Shown: positions 39,422 through 59,280 of the stretch, one piece after another
Layout: each line of letters begins with the position of its first letter
Position numbering within the stretch: the first letter of the stretch is position 1
NCBI GenBank assembly: GCA_029067085.1
Contig: JAIEFE010000021.1
Coordinates: 1-64,000 of the forward strand
DNA: 64,000 nt
Origin: Lachnospiraceae bacterium
Lineage (GTDB): Bacteria > Bacillota > Clostridia > Lachnospirales > Lachnospiraceae
Direction of reading: 5' to 3'
The notes under the pieces: model-generated
The model's input: the letters and a program-made list of their open reading frames with translations, nothing else
Database searches by the model: none
Told to the model about the DNA's origin: nothing
Program-made: the position numbers and the translations under genes

Positions 39422-42400
39422 TTATTTTGAAAAGGATCTCTTTTGGATATCAAATTTTACTGTAACGTAGCCGCCGTAGTCCGGCACCGTACCGTGGATG
39501 GTCAGGCTCCCCTTGTTTTTGCCGGTCTGATCATTTGCACCATAGACGACAACATAATCCTTGTGGTTGCCTTCCTGAAGGAGAACCTTGCCGTTTTCTC
39601 CTTTGTAGTAAACCTCCACCTTAGGTTTCACCTGTCTTCCCGTGTAATAGGTATCACCGACGATCTTTATTTCCACATTATCCTTTGTCAGCTCAGTCAT
39701 GTAGACAGGCAGCAGTACCGTGTGAGAAGAGAGATACGGAGAGTCAGCTGTCGGTGTGATGACTACGCGCGGAATGGGGTGGACATTCTTGGGGGTTTCC
39801 TTCAGCGTCTTGACAAAGCTCTCATAATCAGCCTGTGTGTTCTCCAGATATGTGATCGTATAGTCCTTGTCGAGACGGAGTTTATTGTTTCCGTCCCACA
39901 CGTTGATGACTGGCGTATAGGCATAGTCAGCAGGTTTGCCGGGCAGATAGGGGATGGAAACCGCCGTGAAGAGGAGGCCGTCCTCTTCATTGTCAAAATC
40001 AGCCTTGCGGATGCTGAAGAAGACTTTCAGCTCACCGGTATAATTTCCTCTTCCCTTTACTATAACGGTGGGTGGTTTTGGATCTGTCTTTTCAGCCACA
40101 GCGTTGTTGTTCAGATATCTGAGGCTGTAGTCCGTATAGTTTTGGAGCACAAAGCCGCAAGGGTTCGTAAGAACGATCTCATCCACAGGTTTTACGCCGC
40201 TTTTGTTGTATCGGAAGGACAAGCTGCTCATTGCTTCCGCCTGCGTCGTATCCGTGATGGGAGCGGGCGCGATCTTAAAGGTCTTTTTAAAGCTGCCGGA
40301 AAAACCTGCCTGCTTAAGTCCCGTAAAAGTCATCGTGGCGGTTCCTTTGTCTGTATTTTTCGCATAAGTGATGGTGAAGTCCGTATCCGCGATCAACAGT
40401 TGTTCGTCCGCCGTGCCTGCGCAATAGGTCAGGGATATGCCCTCCTGCGTCAGAGGAAGCCCTGTATACACCTTGTTCTCAATGCCGTTCACGCGGACTT
40501 TTTTGGCGGTGAAGGCTTTTCCTTTGATCGTAAAGGTTGCGGTTTTTGTGCCTGCGTATGCGCCAATACCCGTGACAATGAGTTCCGCTTTGCCGACGCG
40601 GTCATTGTTTCGATAGCTTACCGTGTAATCCCTGCCATAGAGTAAAACGGTGTTCCCGTACTTGACGATGAAGGTGTCCGGTGTAAGGATCTCCGAGGGG
40701 GTCAGCTCGACCGGAGTATTTTGGAAAGGAATGTTTTTCAGGTTCTTCCCGAGTGTGATCGTCATATTTTTGAGCAAATGCGCTTTATCTGCTATGTAGA
40801 TGTGTTTGGCGATGCTGCCCGTGTAATTGCCAAGCCCGGTGATCGTCAGCAGAAATTCTCCGCTGTAACCCGCCGGTATGGAAGCGTCGGCAAGCTCTGT
40901 GCCGGCAGTCAGCGCTGCGCCGGAAGGATCAAGCGCGTTTATCGCTGTCAGCCGCAGGGAGAAATCTTTATTTGTCCGCATGGCGGTAACGGATCGAATG
41001 GACGAGAAGGGTTTTGCGGCCTTGTTTGTCATTGCAAATTGATCGGTTACCTTCAATTTCACGTCGGATGCGGGCGTTTCACTTCCGTCGCCGATGGAGC
41101 GGGGAAGGATGTTAAAGTTCAGCTTGCGTACTGCCGCGTAATTGCCTTTTCCGGTGACCTGCACATAAGGCAGAGAGGGATTAAAAGATGATCCATCCTT
41201 CTGTACGCCGCCTGCGTTTGCGTTAACATTATTATAGTATTTGAGCGTGTAATCGCGGCCGGCCCTGAGGAGAGTCTTGCCATAGGATACGCTCAGGGCA
41301 GGTTTCTGCGCTTTGCCTGTGTAGACTAGATCCGGAATTTCCGACAGGGTGAGGACTGGCTCCTCTTCCTTGTCGTCATCGCTGCTGCTTTTTTCTGTCC
41401 ACTTGGCATACAGCGTCATGTCCGCCTGTACGGTATCGGTATCAAAGAGCCACGCATTGATACAGGCGGCTTCTTTGTACCAGCCGTCAAAACGGTAGCC
41501 TGTTTCCCGGGGATTCTCCGGCTTTGTCACTTTGCTGCCTGGGGTAAGGTCTGTGAGGGGAGCAGGAGTTGCTCCGTGTCCCTGCACATCAAAGCGGACG
41601 GTACAGACGATAGCGTTTCCCGTCACTGTCAGTTTGCCGTTCACATAGGTTATGATATAGTTCGGCCCCGCATCTGCACCGCCCGGGACAATATCATATT
41701 CTCCCGGATTATAGGTGGTTGCAATGCTGCATGTATAGATGGGCAGCTTATTCAGGATATCCGTTCCAAACAGCATCCCCGTCATAGTGTATTCGTACGA
41801 TTCTGCGGCGGGAAGCGGATCCCCCGTTTTTATCGTTTTGTCTCTTGCGGTAATGGTGAGCGATGCCTGCGTGATCGTAAAGGTCTTTTCGATGCTGCCT
41901 TCGTAGGCGCCTTTGCCTGTTACGGTTACCTTTGCGTTTCCGGCATCCGTGTTATTCCCGTAAGCAAGGGTGTAATCCACATTCTTTATCAGATTGATTT
42001 CTTTGCCATCCTTGCCGGTATAGGTCACGGTGACTTTCGGCGTACGGCGGGTTCCGTCATACACATAGGAATCTTTCTCCAACGATACGGAGGTATTGGA
42101 TTCCGTCAGTTGCTCCAGCGCAATTTTTTCTACAGTTACCGTGATCTCCAATTCTATTTTCCGGAAACGGGACAGATCGGTCGGCGTGAATATGGCGGTA
42201 CACATCTGTTCTCCCTCGGTTTCGAGAACTGTCATCCCGTCCTTCCAGGCGTAAGTTCCGGTGCCTTTATTGTTATATGCCGAAAGTGAAACATCGTTCA
42301 GTTTTTGTCCGTAGATTGCAGACTGCGGCGCGGGCACCTCGACGATCAGGACATCAAAGGTCAGAGTCTTGTCTGTGTCATAGGTGACGGTCAATGTCTT

Positions 42401-44314
42401 GATTCCTGCCTTGGAGGAATCAAATCCGCTGACCATAGCCGCGGTGAGGTCTTCGGTTTTCCTGCCGTCGTCTGACGGGTAATTCACTTTTCCGCCGGTG
42501 AGGTCGAGCGTCTCACCAATCAGGTAGGTGGTCTTTTCCGGGCGCGTGAGGAGGGCCGGAATGGGGTCGTCAGGCTGCGGCAGGGCGGCATCGACAACCA
42601 GTACGGTTTCTTTCTCAGTCAAGATCGGATCATCGTGCAGCGAGTAGTGTATTTTGTACGGATTGCCCGGATCATCCGGCGGTTCCGGATAGAAAGCGCA
42701 GCCGAAGATGTAGCCGTTTACCCAGCCGGGTGTTAACGAATCGGGTTTGAATATAGAAACGTCGTCGGTGCCGTCCATAGCGATGCTGCGGATCTCGTCG
42801 TAGTCGTTATAATACAGGCGGCCTCCTACCTGGAACAGGCCGGAATAGGAAGACCCATAATATCCGGATAGATCATCGGGGTAGGCTGCGGGCCATCTGC
42901 CTATGGTATGGAAATTTGTGCCGTGGATTGTATCGGCAAGCGCGGATTCCTTTTTCCTGATCACTGCGCTGACCTGCAAAAAATCAAAGGCAGTATAGTA
43001 GCAGGCATCTCCATAAAATACCAGAGGTGCGGTCGAATCTATCCAGAAGGCATCGTCGTAGGTGGTGTCGGTGGCGGTGTGATCCGTTATGTAATAGCTT
43101 TCCGTCACCTGCCAGTCTTTAGCGCCGTTTTTTAAATGGTTTGAAAAAGCAGCATCGCTTCGGAACATGTTGTCGTGGCATGCTCTGCCGACCAGATCCC
43201 AGGTAGGATCATCCCAGGTGACATCCACCTGGTAATATTTGCCGTTCAGTTCAATCATGTTCCAGGCGTGGTCGATGTTATCACTGGTGACCATGTAGCA
43301 GGTAATGCCGCATTGATTTAAGAGATATTTATAGGCAAGCGCATAGCCCTGACATACCGCGATGCGTTTCTTAAATACGCCGTTGATCGTGTAGGAAGAG
43401 CGCGGAATGGTATCGTTATTATAATTTTCAAAGTCGTACTCACAGTTGACGGCCAGATAGTCGTGCAGCTCAATGGCTGTCTGTAACTGGTTCGAACGGT
43501 CCGTAACAAATGCCAGTGCTGCCGAGACAGCATTCTCGACATCTTCGCGCTCAGCGTAAAGTTCTTCGTTCCAAAAATTAGTAAAATTGATTGTTCCAAA
43601 ATACGTTCCTGTAGAGTCAAGGGTATATGAGTAGCTTGCCCTCTGTTGAAACCAGAAAATATCGGGGTACTTGTTGAGCAATCCGGTCAGGAGATGATTC
43701 ACTGTCTGCAAATCCTGAGATTTATCAGGGTCAGAGGGATCATAATCATCGTGAAAAGGTACTTTACAAGATGTAATATTAACTACTTTATTACCATTCT
43801 TGAGTTGTTGATAAATTTCATCAATCGCGGCCTCCAAACCATCGGGATCTTCGACGGCACGGGCAGCATAAGTGACGGGTGAAACATCGTTTGTCGGCGA
43901 TCCGCCAAACTGATAGACACCGTCCAGTTCCAGGGCAATCTCCATCAACTCCCCGTCTGTCTTATCGATGGAGAGGGCATTCGCGGAAACCGTTTCAAGG
44001 AGTTCTTCTTCGAGAGCATCAGGCTCCTCTTCGGGTATATCCGTCTGTTCTTCTCCGGGCGTCTCAGGCGTATCGAGCTGCTCTTCGTCAGGTGTTTCCG
44101 CCTGTTCATCGTCGGGCGCATCGGTTTCCTCGTCGTCGTCAGGCGGGGTGGTCTGATCCGCAGGGGTCTCAGTTCCGATATTGTCTGCGGGCAGGTCCGG
44201 TAACGTCCGGGTCTGTTCCTGTGCGTAGGCCGGGAGGGTAGAAAACGGCACAGAAGTCAGGATGATCAATGCCGTCAGAAACCATACAGTCAGTTTTTTA
44301 GCTGTTCTCTTCAT
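39422..44314 (-). CDS. Large secreted transglutaminase-like/Ig-like surface protein (1630 aa)
   Basis: Signal peptide about 1-31 (cleavage after AYA). An acidic Thr/Pro/Glu-rich linker (about 38-108) is followed by a transglutaminase-like cysteine protease domain (about 260-375) with Cys321 (AVCQGYA), His349 (DHAWNMI) and Asp364 (VDVTWDDP). Ig-like repeats then fill most of the rest; many contain the motif VDYTLAYGNN or DYTVSYRNN. An InlB-type B repeat (GYRFDGWYKE to TLYAKWTEK) lies at about 905-975. No LPXTG or SLH anchor is seen, so attachment is unclear. Start 44314 follows AAGGAG. Probably a cell-surface matrix protein; transglutaminase-like domains may hydrolyse or cross-link peptides. 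Confidence 0.85.
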   Translation of the reverse strand: MKRTAKKLTVWFLTALIILTSVPFSTLPAYAQEQTRTLPDLPADNIGTETPADQTTPPDDDEETDAPDDEQAETPDEEQLDTPETPGEEQTDIPEEEPDALEEELLETVSANALSIDKTDGELMEIALELDGVYQFGGSPTNDVSPVTYAARAVEDPDGLEAAIDEIYQQLKNGNKVVNITSCKVPFHDDYDPSDPDKSQDLQTVNHLLTGLLNKYPDIFWFQQRASYSYTLDSTGTYFGTINFTNFWNEELYAEREDVENAVSAALAFVTDRSNQLQTAIELHDYLAVNCEYDFENYNNDTIPRSSYTINGVFKKRIAVCQGYALAYKYLLNQCGITCYMVTSDNIDHAWNMIELNGKYYQVDVTWDDPTWDLVGRACHDNMFRSDAAFSNHLKNGAKDWQVTESYYITDHTATDTTYDDAFWIDSTAPLVFYGDACYYTAFDFLQVSAVIRKKESALADTIHGTNFHTIGRWPAAYPDDLSGYYGSSYSGLFQVGGRLYYNDYDEIRSIAMDGTDDVSIFKPDSLTPGWVNGYIFGCAFYPEPPDDPGNPYKIHYSLHDDPILTEKETVLVVDAALPQPDDPIPALLTRPEKTTYLIGETLDLTGGKVNYPSDDGRKTEDLTAAMVSGFDSSKAGIKTLTVTYDTDKTLTFDVLIVEVPAPQSAIYGQKLNDVSLSAYNNKGTGTYAWKDGMTVLETEGEQMCTAIFTPTDLSRFRKIELEITVTVEKIALEQLTESNTSVSLEKDSYVYDGTRRTPKVTVTYTGKDGKEINLIKNVDYTLAYGNNTDAGNAKVTVTGKGAYEGSIEKTFTITQASLTITARDKTIKTGDPLPAAESYEYTMTGMLFGTDILNKLPIYTCSIATTYNPGEYDIVPGGADAGPNYIITYVNGKLTVTGNAIVCTVRFDVQGHGATPAPLTDLTPGSKVTKPENPRETGYRFDGWYKEAACINAWLFDTDTVQADMTLYAKWTEKSSSDDDKEEEPVLTLSEIPDLVYTGKAQKPALSVSYGKTLLRAGRDYTLKYYNNVNANAGGVQKDGSSFNPSLPYVQVTGKGNYAAVRKLNFNILPRSIGDGSETPASDVKLKVTDQFAMTNKAAKPFSSIRSVTAMRTNKDFSLRLTAINALDPSGAALTAGTELADASIPAGYSGEFLLTITGLGNYTGSIAKHIYIADKAHLLKNMTITLGKNLKNIPFQNTPVELTPSEILTPDTFIVKYGNTVLLYGRDYTVSYRNNDRVGKAELIVTGIGAYAGTKTATFTIKGKAFTAKKVRVNGIENKVYTGLPLTQEGISLTYCAGTADEQLLIADTDFTITYAKNTDKGTATMTFTGLKQAGFSGSFKKTFKIAPAPITDTTQAEAMSSLSFRYNKSGVKPVDEIVLTNPCGFVLQNYTDYSLRYLNNNAVAEKTDPKPPTVIVKGRGNYTGELKVFFSIRKADFDNEEDGLLFTAVSIPYLPGKPADYAYTPVINVWDGNNKLRLDKDYTITYLENTQADYESFVKTLKETPKNVHPIPRVVITPTADSPYLSSHTVLLPVYMTELTKDNVEIKIVGDTYYTGRQVKPKVEVYYKGENGKVLLQEGNHKDYVVVYGANDQTGKNKGSLTIHGTVPDYGGYVTVKFDIQKRSFSK

Positions 44315-44410
44315 AGATTGCTCCTTGCAAATGAAATTTATGATCAGGGCGCGGACTTTGCTTTGCATGACGAAGAAGTGTGGGGTTGAAAAGCCGCATA
44401 TTTACTGAAT

Positions 44411-46733: not shown

Positions 46734-47747
46734 ATGAAGCTGATTATTCAGATACCATGCTATAATGAAGCGGAAACGCTGGAGATCGCGCTCAATGAGC
46801 TTCCGAAACACATTGAGGGTGTGGACGAGATCGAATATCTGGTCATCAATGACGGCAGCAGCGACGATACGGAGCGGGTTGCTCTGGACTGGGGCGTCCA
46901 TTACATCGTGCATTTTAAGCGCAATCTGGGACTGGCCAAGGGTTTTCTGGCGGGGATCGATCTGGCGCTGCGCCATGGCGCGGATATCATCGTGAACACC
47001 GATGCGGATAACCAGTACTGCGGCGCGGATATTGAGAAACTGATCCGTCCGATCCTCGAGCGGAAGGCGGATATCGTGATCGGAGAAAGGCCCATCGACG
47101 ATAATGCGGAATTTTCGTTTGTAAAGAAAAAGCTGCAGCGGTTCGGCAGCTATGTGGTGAGACTGGCATCGAAGACAGACATACCGGATGCTCCGAGCGG
47201 TTTCCGTGCTTACAGCCGGAAGGCGGCCATGCGGGTAAACGTACATAATGAATACACCTACACGTTGGAGACGATCGTTCAGGCGGGCAGAAATAAGATG
47301 GCGATCACCTCGGTGCCGGTCAATACGAATCCCGAGCTGCGTAAGTCCAGGCTGATGACTTCCATCTTCGATTACGTGAAAAAGTCCATGCTGACGATTT
47401 TGAGGGCAGTTCTGATGTACAGGCCCCTCCGGATATTCACCCTTTTGGGGATGACGTCCATGGCGGGCGGCGTTGCCATCGGCATACGGTTCATGATCTT
47501 CTTCTTTCGAGGAAACGGCGGCGGGCATACCCAGTCCCTGATCCTGGCGGCCATGCTGATCATTATCGGCAGCCAGACTTTTGTGACCGGCCTGCAGGCG
47601 GATATCATATCGGCGAACCGGAAGATCCTGGAGGACATACAATATCGGATCAAAAAACTGGAATTTGCTCTGCTTGATCCGGAAGGCAGACCGGTCTCAG
47701 GGACTGAAAGAGAAGCGGAAAGCCATGATTTGAGGTCTGATGACTAG
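46734..47747 (+). CDS. GT2 glycosyltransferase with C-terminal membrane helices (DPM1/GtrB-like)
   Basis: 337 residues. A GT-A fold opens IIQIPCYNEAETLEIAL, with VINDGSSDDT and the metal-binding TDADNQY; RRFGSYVVRL-like and DAPSGFRAYSRKA segments follow. Two helices near the C-terminus (about 228-255, 263-285) anchor it. Proteins of this layout charge undecaprenyl or dolichyl phosphate with a sugar. Together with the GT-C-like neighbour it could supply glycans for the surface proteins encoded next door (inference). Confidence 0.85.
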   Translation: MKLIIQIPCYNEAETLEIALNELPKHIEGVDEIEYLVINDGSSDDTERVALDWGVHYIVHFKRNLGLAKGFLAGIDLALRHGADIIVNTDADNQYCGADIEKLIRPILERKADIVIGERPIDDNAEFSFVKKKLQRFGSYVVRLASKTDIPDAPSGFRAYSRKAAMRVNVHNEYTYTLETIVQAGRNKMAITSVPVNTNPELRKSRLMTSIFDYVKKSMLTILRAVLMYRPLRIFTLLGMTSMAGGVAIGIRFMIFFFRGNGGGHTQSLILAAMLIIIGSQTFVTGLQADIISANRKILEDIQYRIKKLEFALLDPEGRPVSGTEREAESHDLRSDD

Positions 47748-47837: not shown

Positions 47838-47866
47838 TTGCAAAATAAAAAAACTGGATGTATACT
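47838..47866 (+). promoter_or_regulatory. Fixed promoter of the surface-protein switch
   Basis: TTGCAA (47838-47843), 17-bp spacer, TATACT (47861-47866), then GGAGGA at 47893-47898 and ATG at 47908. It lies outside the 51-bp inverted repeat, so it would drive whichever allele is turned towards it. Confidence 0.8.
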
Positions 47867-47907
47867 AGGTACTAGTCGTAAAAACTAATAATGGAGGAGA
47901 GAGTACG

Positions 47908-50496
47908 ATGAAAAACATGAAAAAGTTGCTTCAGAAAGCAATGGTGTTTACTCTGACGGCAGCTATGCTCGTCGGAACACCGTTGACTGCATCGGCAGCC
48001 GGTCTTGTTGATTTGTATCAGGTCGAAGATGGCGAGGGAAATGTGATTCCTGATCAGGGAAATCCAGATAATACTCGTACCGGTACCGTGACGGTTACCC
48101 AGACATATACAACAACTCTGGAGGCTGAAAACCACCCGATAGGTATTTATCTGGATAACTCGAGCGTTGAGCTGGAGTATCCTACGCCGGGTTCTTTGAC
48201 GGCCAAGATTGAGTGGGATGTCGAAGATAGTAAACTGACTGATAAGGACAAGGCTTTGGAAGCTGACATGTTAAAAAACCTTGTGTGGCAGTCGGACGAT
48301 ACAGCGGTTGTTGCTTTGGAAGTTCCCAACGGTAAATATAACGGCGATTCTCGTGCAACGATTAAGCTGAATCCCAAGGCTATGGGCACAGCTAACGTTA
48401 CAGTAAGCTTGAACAGTAAGAATGGAAGATACAACTTTTCCGCTTCGGCTGCTGTTAATGTAAAGCAGTATGCGACTGATCTTGCGTTTGATAATGAGAT
48501 AGATAAGGTTGCATATATTGGCGATTCTATTGATCTGAATAAGTATGTAGAGAGATATGTAGATGGAAAAGTGGCAGCAAAAGATAACGGAACAGTAAAA
48601 AGCTTAGGCACTGCCGCAAGAAAAGTTCCTGCTACCTCCGATACGCTTACCTTTTCCTTAAAGGCCAATCCTGCTAAGGCTGCGACTCTTAAGAACGGCA
48701 TCCTTACAATAAACAAGTCTGCTAAGGAAGGAGATACGATCAGAATCCTTGCAATCGGTCAGAACTCGAAAGAGAAAGTGGGAACCGAATGGCATAATCT
48801 TACTATCCAAAAGGGTGTCAATGCTACGAAGATAGCATTTGTCGATACGGAAGATAAGATAATCAAAAAAGATAATATCAGGGTTAATGCTGGGTTGACA
48901 ATCGATGTAACAGCTAAAGTTACGAAGACAGATGTGGAGGGTGATTGTACCAACAAAATCAGCTGGTCATCCAAAAAGCCTGAGATTGTAGCCGTTCAGA
49001 CATCACCGGCTGAGAATTTACCGCTGAACAAGAATAAATCTACGGTGACAATAGTGGCAAAGCCTGGATCCGCAGGTAAAACAGCGCAGATTATTGCGAA
49101 AACGTCAAACGGAAAGACTGCAACGCTTTCTGTTAAGGTCAGCGCGGATTTGACGAGTATTAAGATTGAAAATGATGAAATGAAGTTATATTCCGGACAG
49201 ACAATTGATCTGTATGATTTTGCTGATCAGTACTTCGGAAAAAATAAAGAGGATCAATCTAAAGAAACCGGTAATAAGAACTTTACGGATGCTGGTCTGA
49301 AGTGGAGTTTTGATGCAACCGGTCAGGATTTAAAAGATATGAAATCGGCTGCTTCGATTAGTACGAAGGGTGTACTGACTGTCAAGCCGGATCTTTCTAA
49401 AGCTAAAGTAAAGACTGTTAAGGTAACAGCAAAGAGTGCTAAAAAGGTTAACGGTGACTATGTTGTAGCTACTAAGCCAATAACCATTACAGTAGAGCAG
49501 GTAAATATTACCGCTATTATCGTAAATGATGACAAAGGAAATGAGTTAATAAAGACTACTGTAAGCAACGGAAAAGTAGGCACATACAATAAAAAAATTA
49601 CCGAAACAGTTGAAGTTGGTCAGACAAGAGCCTATACATTGTCTGCAAAAGCGGAAGACAAGGACGGTAACGCTATAACCGATCCGACCGTACTGAAGAG
49701 TGTTTTGGGTTGGTCAGCATCCGGTAACGGAAAGATTGTGTCAGCTTTAAGGACTGCTGACGCAGGTACGGTAACGGGTATTGGCAAGGGAAAAACCGCG
49801 ACGATCAGTGTAACTGCTGCGTCAAAGAAAACCAACAACACTTATAAAGCTGTTAAAGTAACCTTTAAAGATAAGGTAACTGCGACCACAAGTACTTTGG
49901 CATTGAACGTTAAAAACAAAGGTATTGCAGCAACTACCAAGAATCAGGCTATTACTATCACGCCGGTTTTGGAAAAAGGTTCGACAACCAATAAGAAGAA
50001 CGATCTTATTTGGACGGCAGTAAAATATGATAAGGATGGAAATACAGCAAAAACTTACACTGCTAATGAGATTAAGAATGGTAAGCTGAAGGATAAATTC
50101 GCGAATGACGCTGGCGGAAGAGTCGTAGTAACAGCAAGAGTTAAAAACGGCGGTCCAAGTGCATCCATAACGCTTCCGATTGTAGTTCAAAGTACAAAGA
50201 TTACAATCAACGATAAAAAGCCTGTTCCAACACTTACTAATGATGCAGTGACAGTTCAAACGAAGATTAATGACAAAGTACCGGGAGAAGCGGGTGTATC
50301 TGAAGTTACCTATACGGTGAATAAAGCCGGTGTTGTCAGAATTAAGGATTTGGGTAAAGGCAATTTAGAAATTACTCCGGTAACCAATGGCAAGGTGAAG
50401 ATTACGGCTACTACACTCGATGGCAAGAAAGCAAGCATAAACATAACTGTAAAAAATGTAGATATTAATAGTAGCACCTGGTCATTAGAGCAGTAA
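47908..50496 (+). CDS. Secreted Ig-like surface protein, expressed allele (862 aa)
   Basis: Signal peptide about 1-31 (MKNMKKLLQKAMVF to ASA-A), then several bacterial Ig-like (BIg2-type) domains rich in Lys, Thr and Val, such as ITIKISWSSKKPEIVAVQ and AGKTAQIIAKTSNGKTATLSVKVSA. There is no LPXTG, SLH or C-terminal membrane anchor; it may assemble into a surface layer or bind wall polymers non-covalently. The first four codons plus promoter and ribosome site lie left of the inverted repeat; everything else lies inside the invertible segment. It is clearly paralogous to the silent allele at 52425-54977 in length, signal peptide and domain order, but strongly diverged after the signal peptide. 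Base composition is more AT-rich than the core genes. Confidence 0.85.
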   Translation: MKNMKKLLQKAMVFTLTAAMLVGTPLTASAAGLVDLYQVEDGEGNVIPDQGNPDNTRTGTVTVTQTYTTTLEAENHPIGIYLDNSSVELEYPTPGSLTAKIEWDVEDSKLTDKDKALEADMLKNLVWQSDDTAVVALEVPNGKYNGDSRATIKLNPKAMGTANVTVSLNSKNGRYNFSASAAVNVKQYATDLAFDNEIDKVAYIGDSIDLNKYVERYVDGKVAAKDNGTVKSLGTAARKVPATSDTLTFSLKANPAKAATLKNGILTINKSAKEGDTIRILAIGQNSKEKVGTEWHNLTIQKGVNATKIAFVDTEDKIIKKDNIRVNAGLTIDVTAKVTKTDVEGDCTNKISWSSKKPEIVAVQTSPAENLPLNKNKSTVTIVAKPGSAGKTAQIIAKTSNGKTATLSVKVSADLTSIKIENDEMKLYSGQTIDLYDFADQYFGKNKEDQSKETGNKNFTDAGLKWSFDATGQDLKDMKSAASISTKGVLTVKPDLSKAKVKTVKVTAKSAKKVNGDYVVATKPITITVEQVNITAIIVNDDKGNELIKTTVSNGKVGTYNKKITETVEVGQTRAYTLSAKAEDKDGNAITDPTVLKSVLGWSASGNGKIVSALRTADAGTVTGIGKGKTATISVTAASKKTNNTYKAVKVTFKDKVTATTSTLALNVKNKGIAATTKNQAITITPVLEKGSTTNKKNDLIWTAVKYDKDGNTAKTYTANEIKNGKLKDKFANDAGGRVVVTARVKNGGPSASITLPIVVQSTKITINDKKPVPTLTNDAVTVQTKINDKVPGEAGVSEVTYTVNKAGVVRIKDLGKGNLEITPVTNGKVKITATTLDGKKASINITVKNVDINSSTWSLEQ
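47919..47969 (+). repeat. Left 51-bp inverted repeat (candidate recombination site)
   Basis: Identical, in reverse orientation, to 54934-54984. It starts GAAAAAGTTGCTTCAG and ends GGCAGCTATGCT, covering codons 4-21 of the surface protein. Inside is the palindrome TTGCTT-CAGA-AAGCAA (47925-47940). Read as two 11-bp arms around a 6-bp spacer (AAAAAGTTGCT, TCAGAA, AGCAATGGTGT), it resembles a tyrosine-recombinase core site with 7 of 11 matching arm positions. Confidence 0.85.
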
Positions 50497-50537
50497 GGTT
50501 CGTACGGACAAACAATTAACGCCAAAAATAAGAAAAA

Positions 50538-52383
50538 GGGGCTGTTGCAAAAGTAGATGAATAATCTACAGGAGCAATGGCTCCCTTTTTGTGTCCGGAA
50601 ACACAAAAGCAGACTCCGGAGAGCCTGCCATTCATGGTATAATAAGTCATGACGAACAACTTAAAATACACTAAAGATTATACCGGACTTTGTGGGTCTT
50701 ATCAACTGGTTTTACCATTAAGTCTGGAAGGTCTGATCCCGGAAGATGAATCTGTCAGACTGCTGAGCCACGAACTGGAGGAACTGGATTATACTTTGTT
50801 ATATCAGGCTTACTCTGCCAAAGGCAGAAATCCGGCAGTTGACCCGAAGGCCATGCTCAAGATCCTGACCTATGCTTATTCCCAGAAGCTTTATTCATTC
50901 AGAAAGATCGAAACAGCCTGCCGCAGGATATCAACTTTATGTGCCTGCTTGCAGGACACAAAGCACCTGACCACAGCACGATCGCCCGTTTCAAGACAGG
51001 CTTTCTTGCAGATGCATGTGAGGATCTGTTTTACCTGATGGTTCGGCGTCTTGCGGCAATGGATGAACTGTCAAACGAAACGCTATTTATAGATGGCACA
51101 AAGCTGGAAGCCTGTGCCAATAGGTACACTTTTGTCTGGAAGAAATCGATAGGGAAAAAATGTTCCTAAAAATGGAGGAAGCAGTACAGATGGTGAACCG
51201 GGAGTATCTGCAGTCTTTCTGTATTTCAAGAGAAGACAGGGTATCTGACCTGCAGGGGATCGTGGCTTATCTGAAGGAATACTGCCATGATAATGAAGTT
51301 GTGTTCGTATATGGGCGTGGAAAAAGAAAAAGCGTGCATCAGCGGTATCTTGAACTGTTTGAAAGATTTCTCGACTGACAGCTTAACTATGATCTGCATA
51401 ACTCACGTTTCGGAAGCCGTAACAGCTATTCCAAAACGGATGTGGATGCCACATTTATGCACATGAAGGATGACCATATGCGAAATGTCCAGCTGAAACC
51501 GGGATATAACATCCAGATCGGAGTTGACAGCGAATACATCGTTGCAACAGATATCTTTCAGGACAGAAATGACGTATGGACGTTTATCCCATTCCTGCAA
51601 CGTATGGAAAAGCATCTGGGTTTCCGGTATCCAAGTGTGAGCGCTGATTCCGGCTATGAAAGCGAAGAAGCCTATGACTATCTGGAAAGCCGGGACCAGA
51701 AACATACATCAAACCCCAGACCTATGAGAAATGGTAGAAGCGTAGTTTTAAGAAGGACATCAGCGGACGGGAAAACATGGAGTATGATACGCAAAAGGAT
51801 ACCTATACCTGTCATGCCGGTAAAAACTGATTTCCCTCTACATCAAGAAACAGAAAAGCAGAAATGGCTATAAATCAGATGTGACCGTATATGAATGTAC
51901 AAACTGCAGCGGATGCTCCTGCAAGATAAATGCACAAGGGAAAAGGGGAACAAACGGCTGTATGTATCCAAAAACTTTATAACCCACCGCCAGAAATCTT
52001 ACGAAAATATCATGAGCGAAACAGGCATCATATATCGTATGAACCGCTCCATTCAGGTAGAAGGCGCTTTTGGGGTTCTGAAAAACGATTATGAGTTCCA
52101 AAGATTTCTACTAAGAGGGAAAAGCAAAGTAAAACTGGAGATTCTGCTTTTGTGTTTTGAATACAACATCAACAAACTGCATGCCAAGATCCAGAACGAC
52201 AGACTTGGAAGTCATATGTTTCCACTAAAAACAGCCTAGAAGTAATATGGAAACCCAGGACCTTTATTAAAGTACGGGAAAATCCGGGAAGAACTTTAAA
52301 AACCGAAGTTTTCCCGGATTTTCATTTCTAGAAAAGAAGGAGCGCCGCTCCCTAACTAGAAATTAGTTATTTTGCGACACTCC
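50538..52383 (+). mobile_element. IS1182-family insertion sequence, decayed
   Basis: About 1846 bp with imperfect terminal inverted repeats: left GGGGCTGTTGCAAAA, right (reversed) GGGAGTGTCGCAAAA. It encodes one broken transposase. It lies in the 82-bp (excluding the element) gap between the two convergent surface-protein genes, 41 bp from each stop. No clear target duplication is visible; the flanks are A-rich on the left and T-rich on the right. A second copy's right end is at 1-77. Confidence 0.88.
50649..52239 (+). pseudogene. IS1182-family transposase, inactivated by frameshifts and a stop
   Basis: Pieces of one transposase are found in order. They are the N-terminal domain MTNNLKYTKDYTGLCGSYQL to AYSQKLYSFRKIETACR (50649 on), then APDHSTIARFKTGFLADACEDLF after a frameshift near 50935, and ETLFIDGTKLEACANRYTFVWKKS. 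A further shift comes near 51160, a TGA at 51376-51378 in otherwise continuous frame, then FGSRNSYSKTDVDATFMHMKDDHM. More shifts between about 51690 and 51890 precede the C-terminal GAFGVLKNDYEFQRFLLRGK. The catalytic DDE regions are present but split, so the copy is not autonomous. Confidence 0.9.
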
Positions 52384-52424
52384 CTTTTAAATCTCAATTA
52401 CTTAAATCATTTTGTTACGATTTA

Positions 52425-54977
52425 TTATTCGGCTCTAACCTCGACCTTAAGAGTGGTTTTCTTATTGTTCGGTGTCTTAGCCGTGATGGTTACTTTACCT
52501 TCCTTCACGCCATATACTTTATTGCCGATGATATTAACTTTACCGGCACCACTCTGTGTATAGGTAACGCCCTCTGTGTAACCCGTTCCTGCAACAACCC
52601 AGTCAGCTGCTCTTGCCGTACCAAGATTAATTTCCGGTTTCATCTCAAAAGATTTGCCAATTTCTACATACTTGGTATTTGCGATCGTTCCATTACCAGT
52701 AGCCTTCGGCTCGCTAAACTTAACATTACCATCCTTTTCAGGATCATGGATTTCAACGCTAGTAGGTTTCTTTAATACTTTGATCTTTGCAGTTGCAGAT
52801 ACACCAGTTGCAGAAATAGCTTTTACCGTATATACATCGCCAAGAGCCGGAGCTGCAAGTTCCACTTTTCCGTTCACGCCGTTTTTACCGCTCACTTTAG
52901 GGTCTGAAACAGTAATCTCTTTACCATCTTTATCCTTACCGGTAACCGTCCATTTTACCGCATCTGCAGCGCCCTTAGGATTCATAGTTGCCTTTAATGA
53001 TACGGTCTGCTTAGCATTATTTGCCTTCGGATAAAGTACGATATCCGTTTTGTTCAACTTAAGAGAAGTTGTAGGCTGAATAACATTTACCGTGAACTGA
53101 GCTTTAATAACCTTTGTCGTCTTAGCAGACTTCTTTTCCTCATCATTCCACTTTGTGACTTTAATGCCACTTGCCGTAATCTTAGTCGTGCCCTTTTTCA
53201 TGGGCTTAATTGTTACCTTGCCGTCCTCACCAACAGTCATCTCTGCGACTTTACTGTTGGAATTCGTCCAGCTCAAGGTTTCATTGTTAGCCTTGCCGGC
53301 AGCAGCCAAATCATCCTCTACGGTTGCCTGATATACACCGTTTATCGGTATTCTAATTTCAGTCTTTGCTGTACCTTCCTTCTTTTGTCTGGTTCCATCA
53401 AGCCAAACCTTGGTAACAAGCTTCGGCTCTTCTTTCTTGTTTGTAATATCCGTAACAGTGATACCATTAATGCTGCTTTGCTGAAGCTTGATTTCTGCTT
53501 TCTGAGTTCCTAACGTATTACCGGTCTTATCGGTATTAGCTATTTTTTTATCTTTCTTAGACTGAACCTTTACATATACCTTATCAGCCTTCAATGTGTT
53601 CTTAACTTTCAGCACACCCTTAGCATTGATGGTAACATCTTTACTCTTCGTAGTATAATATTCATCTTCCCACACCGACCATGATAAAGCATCTTTGTTC
53701 ATTGCCGGATCCCTTACCACATCTAAGGTAATTGACTGTCCAGTATATGCCGTCTCCGGAACTGCAGCGATCTTAAGTCCGTTTAATGTTGCGGAAACCT
53801 TCACACTGAAGCTTGATTTCTTACCGCTTGTTGCTGTAGCTGTGATCTTAGCAGTACCGATTGCTTTCGGTACCAGCGTTGCAAGAGTGCTATCGGAAGC
53901 ATCCTCTGTAACTTCAACGATTGCAGGCCTGTTACTGTTCCACTTGATCTTGTCGGTGACTATCTTGCCCGCCTCTTTAGGCTCCATTTTAGCATGTACT
54001 TGCATGCCTGGCCAATTTTCCTCACCGCCAGCATCCTTTTTCACTGTGCCTTTGAGCTCTTCTTTTTCGTCTTTTCCATCTTTACGCTCAAAGATTTTGA
54101 CACTATTTGCCGCTACACCTTCGCCAACCGTCAGCTCAGCCGTTGCTTTTGCACCTTTTTCAGACACAGCTGTAACTTTGAATGTATTATTCTCCGGCTT
54201 TTTGGTGTCAAACTTCTTAAGAGTAACAACACCATCATTGGAAATGGTTGCCGCGCTTGTCTTGCTGATCGACCATGTAATGCTGTCATTAGCTGTTATA
54301 GGCTTCCTGTTTAGCCACTTGTTCATATCCAAGGTATGTTTTACAAGAACACCATCCTGGTCATTATACTTCTCTTTTGTGAATGATAAAGTTGTTGTGT
54401 ATTCCTTAACAAAGACCTTAGCCGTTGCTGTACGTAGAACCTCAGAACCTTCGATAGTCTTCTTCTCGCCAGTCGTCGGATCTGTATACTCGAAAGGATA
54501 TTTCCCACCAATCGAAGCAGTAATCACAACTTCATCTCCAACATTAGCAGCTTTCTTAGGATTTAAGGTGACCACCGTTCTGTCAGAGGCGTCTGCCTTG
54601 ATGCTTACTTTGCTGTTGTCACTGGTCTCCCATCTGATCAGTCCGTTGATTCGACTTACCATCTCCTCATCTGTGGTGCCATCCAAAATAACTGTAGCTG
54701 TTAAGGTCGGCTGCGGATTCGCTCCTACCTCTGTGCTTACATAGTCCTGATCCAGAACGAAACCGACAATCTTTGTCTCATTGTCACTCAATACACCAGT
54801 CTTTGTGTTTGTATTCGTAACGGTACCGGTAGGGTTCATGTTTTCATCATAATCATCAGCCGGACCCGAACCATCCGAAACACTGTACAAATCCACAAGG
54901 CCTGCTGCAGACGCTGTCATTGGTGTCCCGACCAGCATAGCTGCCGTCAGAGTAAACACCATTGCTTTCTGAAGCAA
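52425..54977 (-). CDS. Secreted Ig-like surface protein, silent allele without start codon (about 850 aa)
   Basis: The open frame begins inside the signal peptide (LLQKAMVFTLTAAMLVGTP). There is no ATG, no ribosome site, and in the same frame TAG and TGA stops occur 3 and 5 codons before the first Leu; the nominal start is TTG. Domains match the expressed allele in order: Ig-like modules such as IKWNSNRPAIVEVTEDASDS and KITATATSGKKSSFSVKVSA, ending KVTITAKTPNNKKTTLKVEV. The frame is otherwise fully open, so it is kept under selection and is not a decaying pseudogene. The recombinase gene lies immediately upstream on the same strand. After inversion it would gain ATG and four codons from the left flank. 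A weak start at the internal Met (shortened signal peptide) cannot be excluded. Confidence 0.85.
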   Translation of the reverse strand: MLQKAMVFTLTAAMLVGTPMTASAAGLVDLYSVSDGSGPADDYDENMNPTGTVTNTNTKTGVLSDNETKIVGFVLDQDYVSTEVGANPQPTLTATVILDGTTDEEMVSRINGLIRWETSDNSKVSIKADASDRTVVTLNPKKAANVGDEVVITASIGGKYPFEYTDPTTGEKKTIEGSEVLRTATAKVFVKEYTTTLSFTKEKYNDQDGVLVKHTLDMNKWLNRKPITANDSITWSISKTSAATISNDGVVTLKKFDTKKPENNTFKVTAVSEKGAKATAELTVGEGVAANSVKIFERKDGKDEKEELKGTVKKDAGGEENWPGMQVHAKMEPKEAGKIVTDKIKWNSNRPAIVEVTEDASDSTLATLVPKAIGTAKITATATSGKKSSFSVKVSATLNGLKIAAVPETAYTGQSITLDVVRDPAMNKDALSWSVWEDEYYTTKSKDVTINAKGVLKVKNTLKADKVYVKVQSKKDKKIANTDKTGNTLGTQKAEIKLQQSSINGITVTDITNKKEEPKLVTKVWLDGTRQKKEGTAKTEIRIPINGVYQATVEDDLAAAGKANNETLSWTNSNSKVAEMTVGEDGKVTIKPMKKGTTKITASGIKVTKWNDEEKKSAKTTKVIKAQFTVNVIQPTTSLKLNKTDIVLYPKANNAKQTVSLKATMNPKGAADAVKWTVTGKDKDGKEITVSDPKVSGKNGVNGKVELAAPALGDVYTVKAISATGVSATAKIKVLKKPTSVEIHDPEKDGNVKFSEPKATGNGTIANTKYVEIGKSFEMKPEINLGTARAADWVVAGTGYTEGVTYTQSGAGKVNIIGNKVYGVKEGKVTITAKTPNNKKTTLKVEVRAE

Positions 54978-54984
54978 CTTTTTC
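54934..54984 (-). repeat. Right 51-bp inverted repeat (candidate recombination site)
   Basis: Perfect reverse complement of 47919-47969. It ends 5 bp before the recombinase stop codon. Beyond the repeat the two alleles still encode the same 13 residues apart from one Leu/Met change, but at most codons the third base differs, so identity is confined to the 51 bp. Confidence 0.88.
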
Positions 54985-54989
54985 TAACT

Positions 54990-55955
54990 TCAGATAATTT
55001 TAAGCTTTTTTTCGATATTTTGAACTTCTTTGATTTTTTCATCATCCGTCACATGGACATATAGGTTCATGGTTACGCCTATGTTTGAGTGTCCCAGGAT
55101 CATCTGCAGAGTTTTCGGACGCATTCCGCTCTCGATGCAGCGTGTCGCAAAGGTATGTCTTAAAACATGCATGGAAAATCGCTCAATTCCGGCCTTGTCG
55201 CAATAATAAAACAATTTTGAGTCGTAGGCGCTGTTTTTGATCGGAATACCATCTTTGCCAAGGAAAACACTGTCCGGAAATTCTTTTGACTTGATCTTCA
55301 TTGCTGTCATCTTTTCTTTTTGATTCTTTAAAATGTTTATCGCTTCCTGTGTTAGCGGTATATCTCTCACACTGTTTTTGGTTTTGGGTTCTCCGATTTT
55401 CCATTCGTTCGTGGTGTAGCGATATTCCATTGTTCTTCGAATATGCAGTACTCTCTTTTCGAAATTAATATCCTGCCATCGTAAGCCGATCATTTCTCCG
55501 GTCCGCAGTCCTGTTTGCAAAAGCAGGGCAAATTGATTGTAATTGCTTGTTCCGTTGACGGTTTTAAGAAATAATCTTTGTTCTTCAATAGTTAAAGCTC
55601 GCATCTGTTTCGCTTTTCTGCCGCTTGTGCATTTGACACTCTTTGTTACCGGATTTTTGGCAAGCAGTTCATTCTCGACGGCACAGTCAAACAGCATCCG
55701 CATAACAAGCCTGGTATGTTCTATGACGGAATTTGCATATCTGGTTGACATTTGATTAAGTACATTCTGGCAATGTAAAGGCTTGACTTCTTTTAACGGC
55801 ATACTTCCGATCAGCGGTTTTATATTCTTTTCGTACCGTTCGTTGTAATTTCTTCTCGTGTTAAATCGAATGTTAGCACCCTTTATATGATCAATCCAAT
55901 AATAATACCAGGCATCTACAGTAGGGGCTTTGTTTTGAAATAAATCTGTTTTCAT
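54990..55955 (-). CDS. Tyrosine recombinase, candidate invertase of the surface-protein switch
   Basis: 321 residues. An N-terminal SAM-like core-binding domain (about 10-100) precedes the catalytic domain, with Arg151 (LQTGLRTGEMIGLRW), the beta-hairpin Lys at about 191-193, His263 and Arg266 (HVLRHTFA), His289 (LGHSNIG) and nucleophile Tyr299 (MNLYVHV). All six positions are intact. It resembles integrases of Gram-positive mobile elements in size, but no excisionase, phage or conjugation genes accompany it. Its stop codon is 5 bp from the right inverted repeat, and it shares a reading frame with the silent allele across two stops. AAGGAG precedes the start. Confidence 0.9.
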   Translation of the reverse strand: MKTDLFQNKAPTVDAWYYYWIDHIKGANIRFNTRRNYNERYEKNIKPLIGSMPLKEVKPLHCQNVLNQMSTRYANSVIEHTRLVMRMLFDCAVENELLAKNPVTKSVKCTSGRKAKQMRALTIEEQRLFLKTVNGTSNYNQFALLLQTGLRTGEMIGLRWQDINFEKRVLHIRRTMEYRYTTNEWKIGEPKTKNSVRDIPLTQEAINILKNQKEKMTAMKIKSKEFPDSVFLGKDGIPIKNSAYDSKLFYYCDKAGIERFSMHVLRHTFATRCIESGMRPKTLQMILGHSNIGVTMNLYVHVTDDEKIKEVQNIEKKLKII

Positions 55956-56180: not shown

Positions 56181-56868
56181 TCACAGATTATATAGTGCAT
56201 ATAGATCTTTCCTGTAATCTATATCAGTAACTACTCTGGACAGGTCATTCGTACGACCGGATTCCAGCAAACATTGAGTCAATTTAGCGAAACGCGATTC
56301 ACCCTCTGCGCGCTCCTCAGCGAAAACTTTTGCACGTGCCTCCGCTCGACATTCAGCGATGCACTCTTCACGCAGCTCAGCGATGCATTCTTCACGCAGC
56401 TCAGCAATGTACTCTTCACGCAACTCAGCCAGATACTTTTCTCTCGCAATCTTTAATTTAGGGATCAGCCCTATATCATCCACAAAATTTTCAAATAATT
56501 CTGCCATATTTCGCTCCTTTACTTGCTCTGTGAAATCCGAGATATCATCCTCCGGCAGATACAGATGTCTCAGCATGCTTGCTGATCCCCTTCTTTTTCT
56601 TCTCCATCTCTTTTTCATAGTCTTCCCATATGTAGACCATGTAGCGGAGAAGCTGCATACTCACATTATAATCTACTTTGGTCTTGTGTTCAATAAGCGT
56701 GACAAAAAATAATGTGTCTTTTTCTGATAATTTTATACGTTTTACCGTATCTGAATTGCGTTCCTCTGTGAACATGGGTATGTACCGTTCTGTGACATTT
56801 TTTTCTCTTTCGACATAAGGACTCCTTTCGACGCGGACAATAACAAAATAACTTGAATGATCCTGCAT
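56181..56868 (-). pseudogene. Rpn-family recombination-promoting nuclease, broken
   Basis: Two overlapping frames together resemble an Rpn/transposase_31-type PD-(D/E)XK protein. An N-terminal part (KDTLFFVTLIEHKTKVDYNVSMQLLRYMVYIWEDYEKEMEKKKKG) runs to about 56545 and then, in another frame, a C-terminal part (HLYLPEDDISDFTEQVKERNMAELFENF) runs to 56181. The middle of the family, normally over 100 residues, is missing, so this is an internal deletion with frameshift. The C-terminal coil holds tandem 24-bp units encoding EECIAELR (about 56345-56425). The first codons of the family are also absent; it is not functional. Confidence 0.65.
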
Positions 56869-57478
56869 TGCCGGAATAGATCAGCGGTTGTACCAGACTA
56901 CAACTGCCATTTGATGTGTTTGTAATACCTGCTTTAATGCCTGTCGGAAAATCTGACAGAAACTGTCTGAACGTGCGAAACGCACATGCCGCCTGATAGA
57001 AAATGTAATAGGCGGTAACATAGGGGAGGATCACTTTTCTCCCAATGTATTTATAATATAGCATGGAAGGATGATTGTCAATTATAAGAGTCTTGTAAGT
57101 CACCACGGGATAAACTTATAGATATTAAATAAAATATAACTGGCCGGAGAAACCTATATCTGCAATATAATCTATAGTTCATTATGATTTTGAAAAATAC
57201 GAAAAAACATTTATAAAATAATATATTGACATACACACAAACAGAGCGTATACTGAGTGTACAGAGTAAACAGGACGAAACCCTCTCATGGGTTTCTGCG
57301 TCACAAAAGGCGCATCCGTGCATTCGCACAACAGGCAGTTTCTGCCGCTTACTCACAATTAGTAACGTAACAACAGAAAATGCGGCGGGAAAGCCGAAAT
57401 GAGGCTCCATTGGCGTATGCTTTCCACCGCAGCACAACAAAAGCAGCCCGCATAGGGTCATGCGGAATGGAGGAGACT
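56869..57478. promoter_or_regulatory. Non-coding stretch with strong promoter and structured leader of the Uma2 gene
   Basis: About 610 bp. The left part (56869-57110) may be further remains of the Rpn-type gene. A consensus-like promoter TTGACA (57226-57231), 17 bp, TATACT (57249-57254) starts a leader of about 215 nt. The leader can fold: GAAACCC/GGGTTTC (57277-57283, 57290-57296), a long arm GCGGCGGGAAAGC (57382-57394) with GCTTTCCACCGC (57419-57430) enclosing AATG/CATT, and CCGCAT/ATGCGG near 57449-57466, just before the GGAGGAG ribosome site. It does not match a riboswitch class I know. Confidence 0.55.
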
Positions 57479-58087
57479 ATGGAAGTCAGATTACCTGAAC
57501 GAGAGGAAGGATTTACTATGCTCAAAGGTGGAAAGGGTTACACGATCGCGGATATCGAAACGCTCCCGGAGGGAGAGCGGGCAGAATTGATCGACGGAGA
57601 ACTGTTTCGAATGGATGCACCTGTAAGAATTCATCAGGATATTCTCTCACAGCTTATGGTTGAAATCAGTCTGTATATCAGGAAAAATAAGGGAAAATGC
57701 AAAATATATCCTGCGCCTTTCGCGGTATATATCAAGAAGGATAAGCACAACTATGTGGAGCCGGATATTTCCGTCGTCTGCGACAAAGGCAAGCTGGATG
57801 AAAAAGGCTGTCAGGGCGCGCCGGACTGGATGATTGAGATCGTGTCGCCCTCAAGTAAATCAATGGATTACGAACGAAAGGTCAAACTTTATTGTGAAGC
57901 AGGTGCACGCGAATACTGGATTGTGGATTCCGAGATGGAGACTGTCACGATATATGATTTTGAACGAAGTGCATTGTGCAGCAGCGGAGACGAGCCGGAA
58001 CCCGTGCGCTATTCCTTCTCTGAGCGAATCAAAGTGAGAATCTTCGAAGATCTGTGGCTGAATCTTTCAGAAATGGATTTCAGCTGA
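57479..58087 (+). CDS. Uma2-family (DUF820) putative nuclease
   Basis: 202 residues from ATG 57479, chosen for GGAGGAG upstream. The Uma2 fold is recognisable: YTIADIETLPEGERAELIDGELFRM, NYVEPDISVVCDKGKL and APDWMIEIVSPSSKSMDYERKVKLYCEAGAREYWIVD give a PD-(D/E)XK-like active site (Asp in EPD, Glu-Ile in MIEIVS, Lys in ERKVK). Biological role unknown for most members; they are common in multicopy in Clostridia and cyanobacteria. Here it follows a broken Rpn nuclease gene. Confidence 0.85.
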   Translation: MEVRLPEREEGFTMLKGGKGYTIADIETLPEGERAELIDGELFRMDAPVRIHQDILSQLMVEISLYIRKNKGKCKIYPAPFAVYIKKDKHNYVEPDISVVCDKGKLDEKGCQGAPDWMIEIVSPSSKSMDYERKVKLYCEAGAREYWIVDSEMETVTIYDFERSALCSSGDEPEPVRYSFSERIKVRIFEDLWLNLSEMDFS

Positions 58088-58152
58088 TTCATGTAAGCAG
58101 ACAGTTGGCTAGTTGACAGTGTATTTTGTATGCGGAAGGGGATGATAGATCT

Positions 58153-59280
58153 ATGCAAAAAAAAATCATTTTGATCGGCCCGGTCTATCCATATAAAGGC
58201 GGGATATCCCACTACACGGGACTCATGTACCGCGAGCTGGCTAAGCGGCATGATGTGGAGATGATCTCCTACAAGATGCAATACCCGAAAATTCTTTTTC
58301 ATAAAGAACAGCGGGATTACAGCAATGACAGCTTTAAGATAGAGAACACGGAATATATGCTCCATACGGCGAATCCTTTTAATATCATAAAAACAGCAAA
58401 CTATATCAGGCGACAGAGTCCGGATTTGGTGGTGATCCAGTGGTGGCATCCCTATTTTGCACCATGTTATTTTCTCCTGGCGCGTTTCATGGGAAAGCAG
58501 AACGTTGTCTTTGTCTGTCATAATGTATTTCCCCATGAGAGATTTCCGCTGGATAGATTTCTTACGAGACTGGCATTAAATAACGGCAGTCATTTTATAG
58601 TACACGCTGCAGAAGAGGCGAAAGAATTAGAAAAGATAAAACCCGATCCGGATTATGTGGTGACGCCCCATCCGACATACAATGCCTTTTGCTTTGAAAA
58701 GATGAGTAAGGGGCAGGCGCAGAAAAAGTTAGATATTGCATCGGATGAGAAAATCCTTCTGTTTTTTGGGTATGTGAGAGAATACAAAGGTCTGAAATAC
58801 CTGTTCCGCGCGATGCCGGCAATCTGTAAGGCGGATGATAAAGTGCGGCTGTGGGTCGTAGGCGAATTTGGTGCAGACAGAGAAGAGTATCGAGGGCTGA
58901 TCGAAGAGCTGGAAATAGCAGAGTATGTCAGAGTGGTGGACTCCTATACACCCGATCGGGAAGTGGAGCAGTATTTTGCGGCGGCGGATCTGGTGGTGGT
59001 GCCTTACGTGTCTGCAACCCAGAGCGGGATCGTACAGATCGCATACGGTTTTACAAAGCCCGTGATAGTCACAGAGGTGGGCGGACTGCCGGATGTGGTA
59101 GAGGACGGCAGGACCGGGTATGTGGTAAAGCCGGAAAGTCCAGAGGCCATTGCAGAGGCAGCGCTTAAGTTCTTTCGGGAGGAACAGGCGGAATGTATGA
59201 GGGGGAATATCGAGAAGGAAGCTTACCGGTTCTCGTGGGAGAGGATGGGGGAAGTGGTGGAGAAATTTATGCAGGATTAA
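58153..59280 (+). CDS. GT4-family glycosyltransferase
   Basis: 375 residues, GT-B fold. The N-terminal IGPVYPYKGGISHYTGLMYREL carries the acceptor-side Gly-rich loop, and HNVFPHERFPLDRFL lies mid-protein. The nucleotide-sugar side has FFGYVREYKGLKYLFRAMP and the EX7E-like segment VVPYVSATQSGIVQIAYGFTKPVIVTEVGGLPD, in which the first Glu is not obvious. Cytoplasmic, likely adding a sugar to a surface glycan. Start 58153 follows GGAAGGGGA. Confidence 0.88.
   Translation: MQKKIILIGPVYPYKGGISHYTGLMYRELAKRHDVEMISYKMQYPKILFHKEQRDYSNDSFKIENTEYMLHTANPFNIIKTANYIRRQSPDLVVIQWWHPYFAPCYFLLARFMGKQNVVFVCHNVFPHERFPLDRFLTRLALNNGSHFIVHAAEEAKELEKIKPDPDYVVTPHPTYNAFCFEKMSKGQAQKKLDIASDEKILLFFGYVREYKGLKYLFRAMPAICKADDKVRLWVVGEFGADREEYRGLIEELEIAEYVRVVDSYTPDREVEQYFAAADLVVVPYVSATQSGIVQIAYGFTKPVIVTEVGGLPDVVEDGRTGYVVKPESPEAIAEAALKFFREEQAECMRGNIEKEAYRFSWERMGEVVEKFMQD

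Follow-up and report, generated by a model that had tools for sequence, protein, structure and literature searches.

The window, by which we mean the whole stretch of 64,000 nucleotides analysed here (part of contig 14 of the 26 contigs in a 3.76-Mb assembly of a Lachnospiraceae bacterium, 83.6% complete), contains two convergent genes for secreted proteins that open on a shared inverted repeat, next to a gene for a tyrosine recombinase. An earlier note, made from the letters alone, had described this locus as a recombinase-linked invertible switch between two surface-protein alleles.

Anatomy of the repeat, its two genes and the recombinase

The left gene (47908-50496, plus strand) encodes 862 residues, a signal peptide followed by tandem immunoglobulin-like (Ig-like) domains, and occupies what we call the ON position. 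A promoter scan placed the promoter of this expression site at 47838-47866 (TTGCAA-17-TATACT, plus strand), the ribosome-binding site lies at 47892-47903 (plus strand), and GGAGGAGAG precedes the ATG. Because the scan found no excess of sites over shuffled sequence (21 versus 17.6, standard deviation 4.0), the promoter is better supported by its conservation in relatives: both hexamers are kept in six of eight aligned genomes, the other two having TTGTGA or TTGTTA with TATAAT, and TGGAGGAGAGAG at the ribosome site is invariant in all eight. The right, silent gene (52425-54977, minus strand) is open over 850 codons from a TTG but lacks an ATG linked to either promoter or ribosome site; 15 nucleotides separate the end of an in-frame TAG from the shared KA codons downstream, and the sequence upstream of the frame shows no ribosome site. 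Across the sites compared, AGGAG precedes the ATG at eight of eight ON sites and precedes no candidate start at any of the eight OFF sites. A single expression site that holds promoter and start, with silent copies that have neither, is the arrangement of an inversion-type antigen switch, and the site comparison and the conservation bear out the earlier statement that promoter, ribosome site and ATG belong to the left copy only.

The arms of the inverted repeat (47919-48017 and 54886-54984) are 99 nucleotides long and 90% complementary. Complementarity is perfect over the first 51 nucleotides (47919-47969, plus strand, within signal-peptide codons, and 54934-54984, minus strand); the following 48 contain ten mismatches, nine of them at third codon positions, and upstream of the repeat only 22 of 60 nucleotides match. 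Given this mismatch pattern and the low identity of the two proteins (32% over residues 3-771 of the left one), the identity of the first 51 nucleotides exceeds protein conservation. Coordinates and alignment thus agree with the claim of a perfect 51-bp repeat opening two convergent, diverged genes. Searches of the same genome (83.6% complete) gave no second copy of either the repeat or the left gene. Inversion in silico joins the silent frame in register to the fixed ATG, as in inversion-type antigen switches and as the earlier note had foreseen, and yields an open frame MKNMKKLLQKAMVF... of 856 codons. The recombinase gene (54990-55955, minus strand; 321 residues; Pfam Phage_integrase, 6.1e-33), which encodes the proposed inversion enzyme, is complete, as had been noted, and ends 5 bp from the right repeat.

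The description of the products as Ig-like secreted proteins is supported by their relatives and by the fold model and needs correcting on one point, since neither window protein matches a Pfam Ig model at E<=0.001. Their Ig-like nature is argued from Big_2 matches (E<=0.01) in 22 of the 29 members of an alignment of right-type proteins, from weak LigB-type matches in the PDB (E 0.002-0.06, ranked behind spurious ubiquitin matches) and from an AlphaFold model of the left protein, which has strands in tandem throughout (mean predicted local distance difference test score 79.6). The fold matches of this model are tandem-Ig proteins generally, with low TM-scores of 0.11-0.20, and the bacterial proteins among the 50 fold matches listed include the surface-layer (S-layer) proteins Sap, EA1, SbsB and SbsC. 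The surface proteins have isoelectric points of 9.3-9.4. From these models they would be secreted Ig-domain proteins, possibly S-layer-like, although an S-layer role is a guess.

The locus and its alleles in related genomes

A pattern search found the site in seven of the 77 genomes of the genus. GT2, the family 2 glycosyltransferase encoded by the conserved left neighbour (46734-47747, plus strand), was used to locate such loci without reference to the site itself; 57 of the 77 genomes match it at E<=1e-100, and 18 of these were opened, namely the 16 best-scoring (the window included) plus G078 and G032. The conserved right neighbour is GT4, a group 1 glycosyltransferase (58126-59280, plus strand). 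The layout GT2, ON gene, silent gene or genes, recombinase, GT4 is found in the window (genome G000), G015, G086, G087 and G071, the G087 locus holding one ON and three silent genes in both orientations, and G082 has the recombinase and two or more surface genes spread over two contigs. Loci without a recombinase, in G062, G068, G023, G090, G031, G065 and G070, have one surface gene. Among the 13 loci with both flanks seen, at least two surface genes are therefore present in six of six with the recombinase, and a single one in seven of seven without it. The contig ends at the locus in G063, G003 and G089, and G032 and G078 carry other genes there. A 92% identical recombinase also stands beside GT4 at L075 (1535-2500), on a 3.3-kb contig of another genome, where unrelated DNA follows; this locus is either an exception or a remnant. 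On host trees the recombinase is scattered (five changes on the GT2 tree and three on the GT4 tree, not better than shuffles at the 5% level), which implies repeated gains, losses or transfers. A search of 397 genomes of the family, with a different pattern and only three genomes of the genus, returned one match, the window's own, and a pattern search of viral contigs returned none.

The silent genes are open over 848-940 codons in seven of eight cases. The remaining one is fragmented; it belongs to G071, where the recombinase stops after residue 265. The ratio of nonsynonymous to synonymous differences (pN/pS) was 0.28-0.59 in four comparisons between silent genes and 0.46-0.49 in three between ON genes, with synonymous divergence near saturation in several of them; the window's silent gene against 496 codons of the G071 silent copy gave 0.39.

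Because the codons for MKNM (MRSV or MKNV in some species) are confined to the fixed site, whether a gene was ON or OFF can be read from the N-terminus of its predicted protein. OFF-type starts were seen in 38 of 206 proteins, a set that includes the best 120 of 138 matches in one listing; of two scripts that assigned the states, the first left three proteins unclassified (and six more as 'ON?') and the second 21. Four alleles, their state read from protein starts, occur with both ON-type and OFF-type N-termini. The richest is the VDIYKTEDGW group, with 38 ON clusters (321 contigs) and 14 OFF clusters (203 contigs), in which ON/OFF pairs are identical over up to 843 of 843 residues and the lengths fit, being 842 residues from a GTG inside the repeat and 854 when counted from the ATG of the expression site. 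In G082 the DNA beside the recombinase holds an OFF copy of this group, an allele that shares at least 95% identity with 23 ON clusters and 10 OFF ones. P0212 and P0213 (97.5% identical) represent one allele in both states. The window's left allele, ON here, has an OFF-type start in P0241 (100% over 851 residues; found on contigs of up to 42,141 bases), and that of G003, which its DNA shows as ON, is OFF-type in P0249 (98.8%). When the OFF label was mapped on a quick tree of 133 alleles, its 26 rows took 22 changes, against a shuffled mean of 24.0, and this scatter argues that OFF is not a dying lineage. This tree was built without P0326, same-state near-copies at >=88%, proteins of <=700 residues and the DNA-derived silent copies of G000, G082 and G071, the first two of which are represented by P0121 and P0298.

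In the assemblies of G082, G063, G003 and G089 (L107, L108, L109, L110, L114) the sequence breaks off within the invertible segment or at its border. These breaks fall beyond the 3' ends of the genes (in G089 just after GT2), and inversion alone is no explanation for them; contig ends in G082, G063 and G003 were rejected as inversion traces because they lie there and not at the repeats. Between its convergent genes the window holds a degenerate insertion sequence (50538-52384, plus strand, terminal repeats read by eye), presumably IS1182-like, whose transposase is in three broken pieces (open reading frames 50649-51038, 51442-51873 and 51895-52239) with DUF772 and DDE_Tnp_1_6 matches; the stretch between the genes is only 108-239 bp in G015, G086 and the first G087 pair. 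A small open reading frame with repeated AELREECI-like units (56181-56618) and a Uma2-family gene (57380-58087) separate the recombinase from GT4, and on the far side of the glycosyltransferases (39422-44368) a 1648-residue protein combines a transglutaminase-like domain with Flg_new, MBG_2 and Big_3 repeats.

Ancestry of the recombinase and the proposed point of crossover

The named relatives of the window's recombinase are mostly from Lachnospiraceae, and its closest solved relative is 6emy ('Int protein'), which we take to be the Int of Tn1549. Alignment to 6emy places the catalytic R, K, H-x-x-R, H and Y (the tyrosine being residue 299) in GLRTGE, EPKTKNSVR, HVLRHTFATR, LGHSNIG and NLYVH. 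A tree of 37 rows, flagged for long branches between distant integrases, groups the enzymes of the six loci in a single clade (99/96) with 11 database proteins of unplaced genomic context; P0001-P0005, which are all short-type, cluster there with the enzymes of the window and G071 (99/99). Outside this clade the located rows that come closest are L077, next to ychF, and L100, an 80% identical integrase on a viral contig. Integrases stand directly 5' of ychF in six of ten relatives in a first set (identity to the query is 35-42% in the other four) and at 11 of 16 loci in a second, where two of the remaining five are the present surface locus, one is at a contig edge and two differ. These ychF-linked genes (L045, L046, L047, L049, L054 and L077, and the 11 loci, for example L081 and L085), present in many Lachnospiraceae, are directly upstream of the start codon. 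At L084 the match to ychF stops after its first 17 nucleotides, a point that may mark an attachment core inside the first ychF codons. When ten assemblies were searched for a directly repeated copy of the sequence that follows the integrase, including the start of ychF, a single 13-bp match (in G030) came up, so the attachment core of these elements is not established.

The window's enzyme lacks an N-terminal arm-binding domain: PF02920, the Tn916-type DNA-binding domain, gives no match at E<=1, and it matches the enzymes of G015 (3e-6), G086 (2.9e-5), G087 (0.0029) and G082 (0.0025), G015 alone passing the curated cut-off. The gap between recombinase and repeat, 5 bp in the window, is 82-84 bp in these same four genomes and begins there with two TTGGTGTA-like copies 12 bp apart. 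Within each gap such direct repeats are weakly better than shuffles (53 to 158 of 2000 were as good), so that the argument for arm sites lies in the recurrence of the same motif and spacing in all four. A tyrosine recombinase survey describes the arm-binding domain as essential for mobility and its acquisition as the step from which mobile integrases arose (PMC8138268). Loss of that domain seems to accompany domestication here, the reverse of the step in the survey, with the order of events that we suggest below.

The proposed crossover core, GCAATGGTGTTTAC, lies at 47938-47951 (plus strand) and 54952-54965 (minus strand). It is identical in the 16 tabulated arms, three single-gene genomes apart, which differ there or preserve it at the codon level (G065 and G090 have ...TTTGC, G070 has GCGATGG), an identity that partly reflects selection, as some of the genomes were found by a pattern containing it. 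OFF arms begin to match the ON arm sharply at GAAAAAG in eight of eight cases (31-33 of 33 nucleotides, versus 4-12 of 30 upstream), and differences upstream of GCAATGGTGTTTAC in G015 and G071 fit markers that stay with the flanks. Downstream markers in the VDIYKTEDGW group stay with the allele in 37 of 39 ON rows (the exceptions are P0273 and P0285; a third exception to the rule is P0171 against G086) and in 14 of 14 OFF rows. A palindrome in the repeat, TTGCTT-CAGA-AAGCAA, was rejected as the core since the two arms of G015, and likewise those of G071, do not share its centre. As judged from these alignments, crossover is likely, though not tightly, placed at or near GCAATGGTGTTTAC.

A probable two-allele switch, its rivals and its precedents

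The layout of the locus, its frame and conservation, the co-occurrence seen, and public proteins in which an allele bears either type of start make it highly probable, as far as sequence can tell, that DNA inversion switches expression between two alleles here, with the adjacent tyrosine recombinase as its agent. The promoter, ribosome site and first codons (MKNM) would stay fixed on the left, and the recombinase would cut and rejoin within the repeat, inverting the 7.0-kb segment. Whichever allele came to lie next to the fixed site would be made as a secreted, possibly S-layer-like, Ig-domain protein, and the other would be silent beside the recombinase. Since only 11 coding nucleotides precede the repeat, nearly the whole protein would be swapped. 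The expression of one protein or the other that the earlier note had proposed gains support from the conservation of the locus, from the joint occurrence of recombinase and extra alleles, and from the two types of N-terminus. It is probably the window's own enzyme that does this, and the segment would flip in the source strain, with the product serving at the surface; position, co-occurrence and co-decay would fit action of the recombinase on the repeats. The enzyme shares its ancestry with integrases of phage-like elements and, in the window's branch, seems to have lost its arm-binding domain.

Several points count against this interpretation. The loci share descent and the recombinase is patchy, so the counts are not independent events, and neither repeat nor surface gene was found in the 761 bp after the L075 recombinase. 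The state of a protein rests on database gene-start calls, and several alleles turned up in a single state: relatives close to the ON allele of G015 were seen only as ON, the G015 silent allele (P0231, 97%) is only OFF, and the window's silent allele, among the best 120 of 138 matches, is found at >=90% only in the OFF-type P0121. Cross-species relatives also tend to share position, in pairs chosen by the analyst (G000/G071, G087/G082 and G015/G086 as OFF-OFF; G000/G003, G087/G003 and G015/G086 as ON-ON). Finally, one of the silent arms in G087 departs from the rest at 8 of 63 positions, and a T/A marker exchanged in P0273, P0285 and P0171 does not fit one fixed crossover point.

That last exchange, downstream of the proposed core, would suit RecA-type homologous recombination between the repeats, with the recombinase a bystander from a mobile element; 51 bp of identity could suffice for such inversion at a low rate, and L075 has a recombinase with no surface genes in view. 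We nevertheless consider this explanation improbable, since extra alleles are found at six of six recombinase-positive loci and none of seven recombinase-negative ones, both flanks seen, the locus recombinases form one clade, the only broken one (G071) accompanies a broken silent gene, and all eight OFF arms start matching at the same GAAAAAG. Inversion is dispensed with altogether if read-through of the recombinase mRNA lets the silent gene be translated in place from an internal start, so that both proteins are made: the recombinase gene is directed at the silent gene, with its end 5 bases short of the repeat, and in-frame TTG, ATG and GTG codons are present. The absence of AGGAG from all eight OFF contexts, and the fact that a product from the ATG or GTG would be without the charged start of the signal peptide, make this very unlikely. 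Still harder to credit is a static locus whose right copy is a decaying, never expressed duplicate from an old integration. The lack of a promoter, ribosome site and upstream ATG, the broken G071 copy and the alleles seen in a single state would suit it, but seven of eight silent copies are open, the compared pairs look constrained and four alleles bear both types of N-terminus.

A two-allele inversion switch of this kind has precedents. The slp genes of Lactobacillus acidophilus share their 5' regions. As described in the available parts of the reports, slpA and slpB lie on a 6-kb chromosomal segment whose inversion swaps an expressed and a silent surface-layer gene, the latter without a promoter (PMC6015585, PMC6176008, PMC7858073); those texts name no adjacent cognate recombinase, whereas here one adjoins the repeat. 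The slp proteins (46 and 47 kDa) are about half the size of the window's. In the excerpts at hand for Mycoplasma pulmonis vsa/HvsR, inversion likewise joins a promoter, ribosome site and 5' coding part to a silent gene, and a tyrosine recombinase gene is nearby, but the first 714 coding nucleotides are fixed there, against 11 before the repeat here (PMC2268961, PMC4534519). The recombinase lineages of HvsR and the window presumably differ. Mycoplasma agalactiae vpma/Xer1, again from partial text, has one promoter, several silent whole genes and an adjacent recombinase, which recalls the four-gene G087 locus; its recombination sites are upstream of the start codon (-1 to -72) and not in signal-peptide codons. 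Integrases of the Tn916/Tn1549 type, from phages and from integrative and conjugative elements, are kin through 6emy, L100 and the ychF-linked enzymes, yet no element is seen around the window's recombinase and the Tn916-type DNA-binding domain is absent. Like R64-type shufflons, G087 has several inverted copies of the site with one recombinase; shufflons vary the C-terminus, whereas here the start is shared and the rest swapped.

The design had been called unusual and not known to be described in this group. On the second point we found no earlier report of such a switch there in searches of open-access literature (most subscription journals fall outside that scope), and a gut inverton survey mentions neither Lachnospir- nor a signal peptide in the available portion of its main text (PMC11892184); on the first, the slp and vsa precedents temper the claim. 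The kind of system is known, and the present one differs by an integrase-derived enzyme beside its site, a crossover in signal-peptide codons, the arm-domain series and the breadth of its allele pool. For this series we offer a scenario whose chances we regard as evenly balanced. Within one genus, a phage-type integrase with relatives 5' of a protein-coding gene would have settled at a single-copy surface gene, first with its arm domain and arm sites beside one of two sites; both would later have been shed in the window's branch, leaving a simple inverter that swaps whole mature proteins behind a shared signal peptide, drawn from a large pool of alleles that gut Lachnospiraceae have in common; one species has the switch in a four-allele form.

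The locus suggests that little-studied gut Lachnospiraceae switch a surface protein in a programmed, antigen-like way, and this would bear on how commensals meet antibodies and phages. Its natural stages stand side by side, as single-gene loci, loci with an arm-bearing recombinase, armless ones and a decaying one, and they offer a test of how the integrase of a mobile element may turn into a host gene switch.

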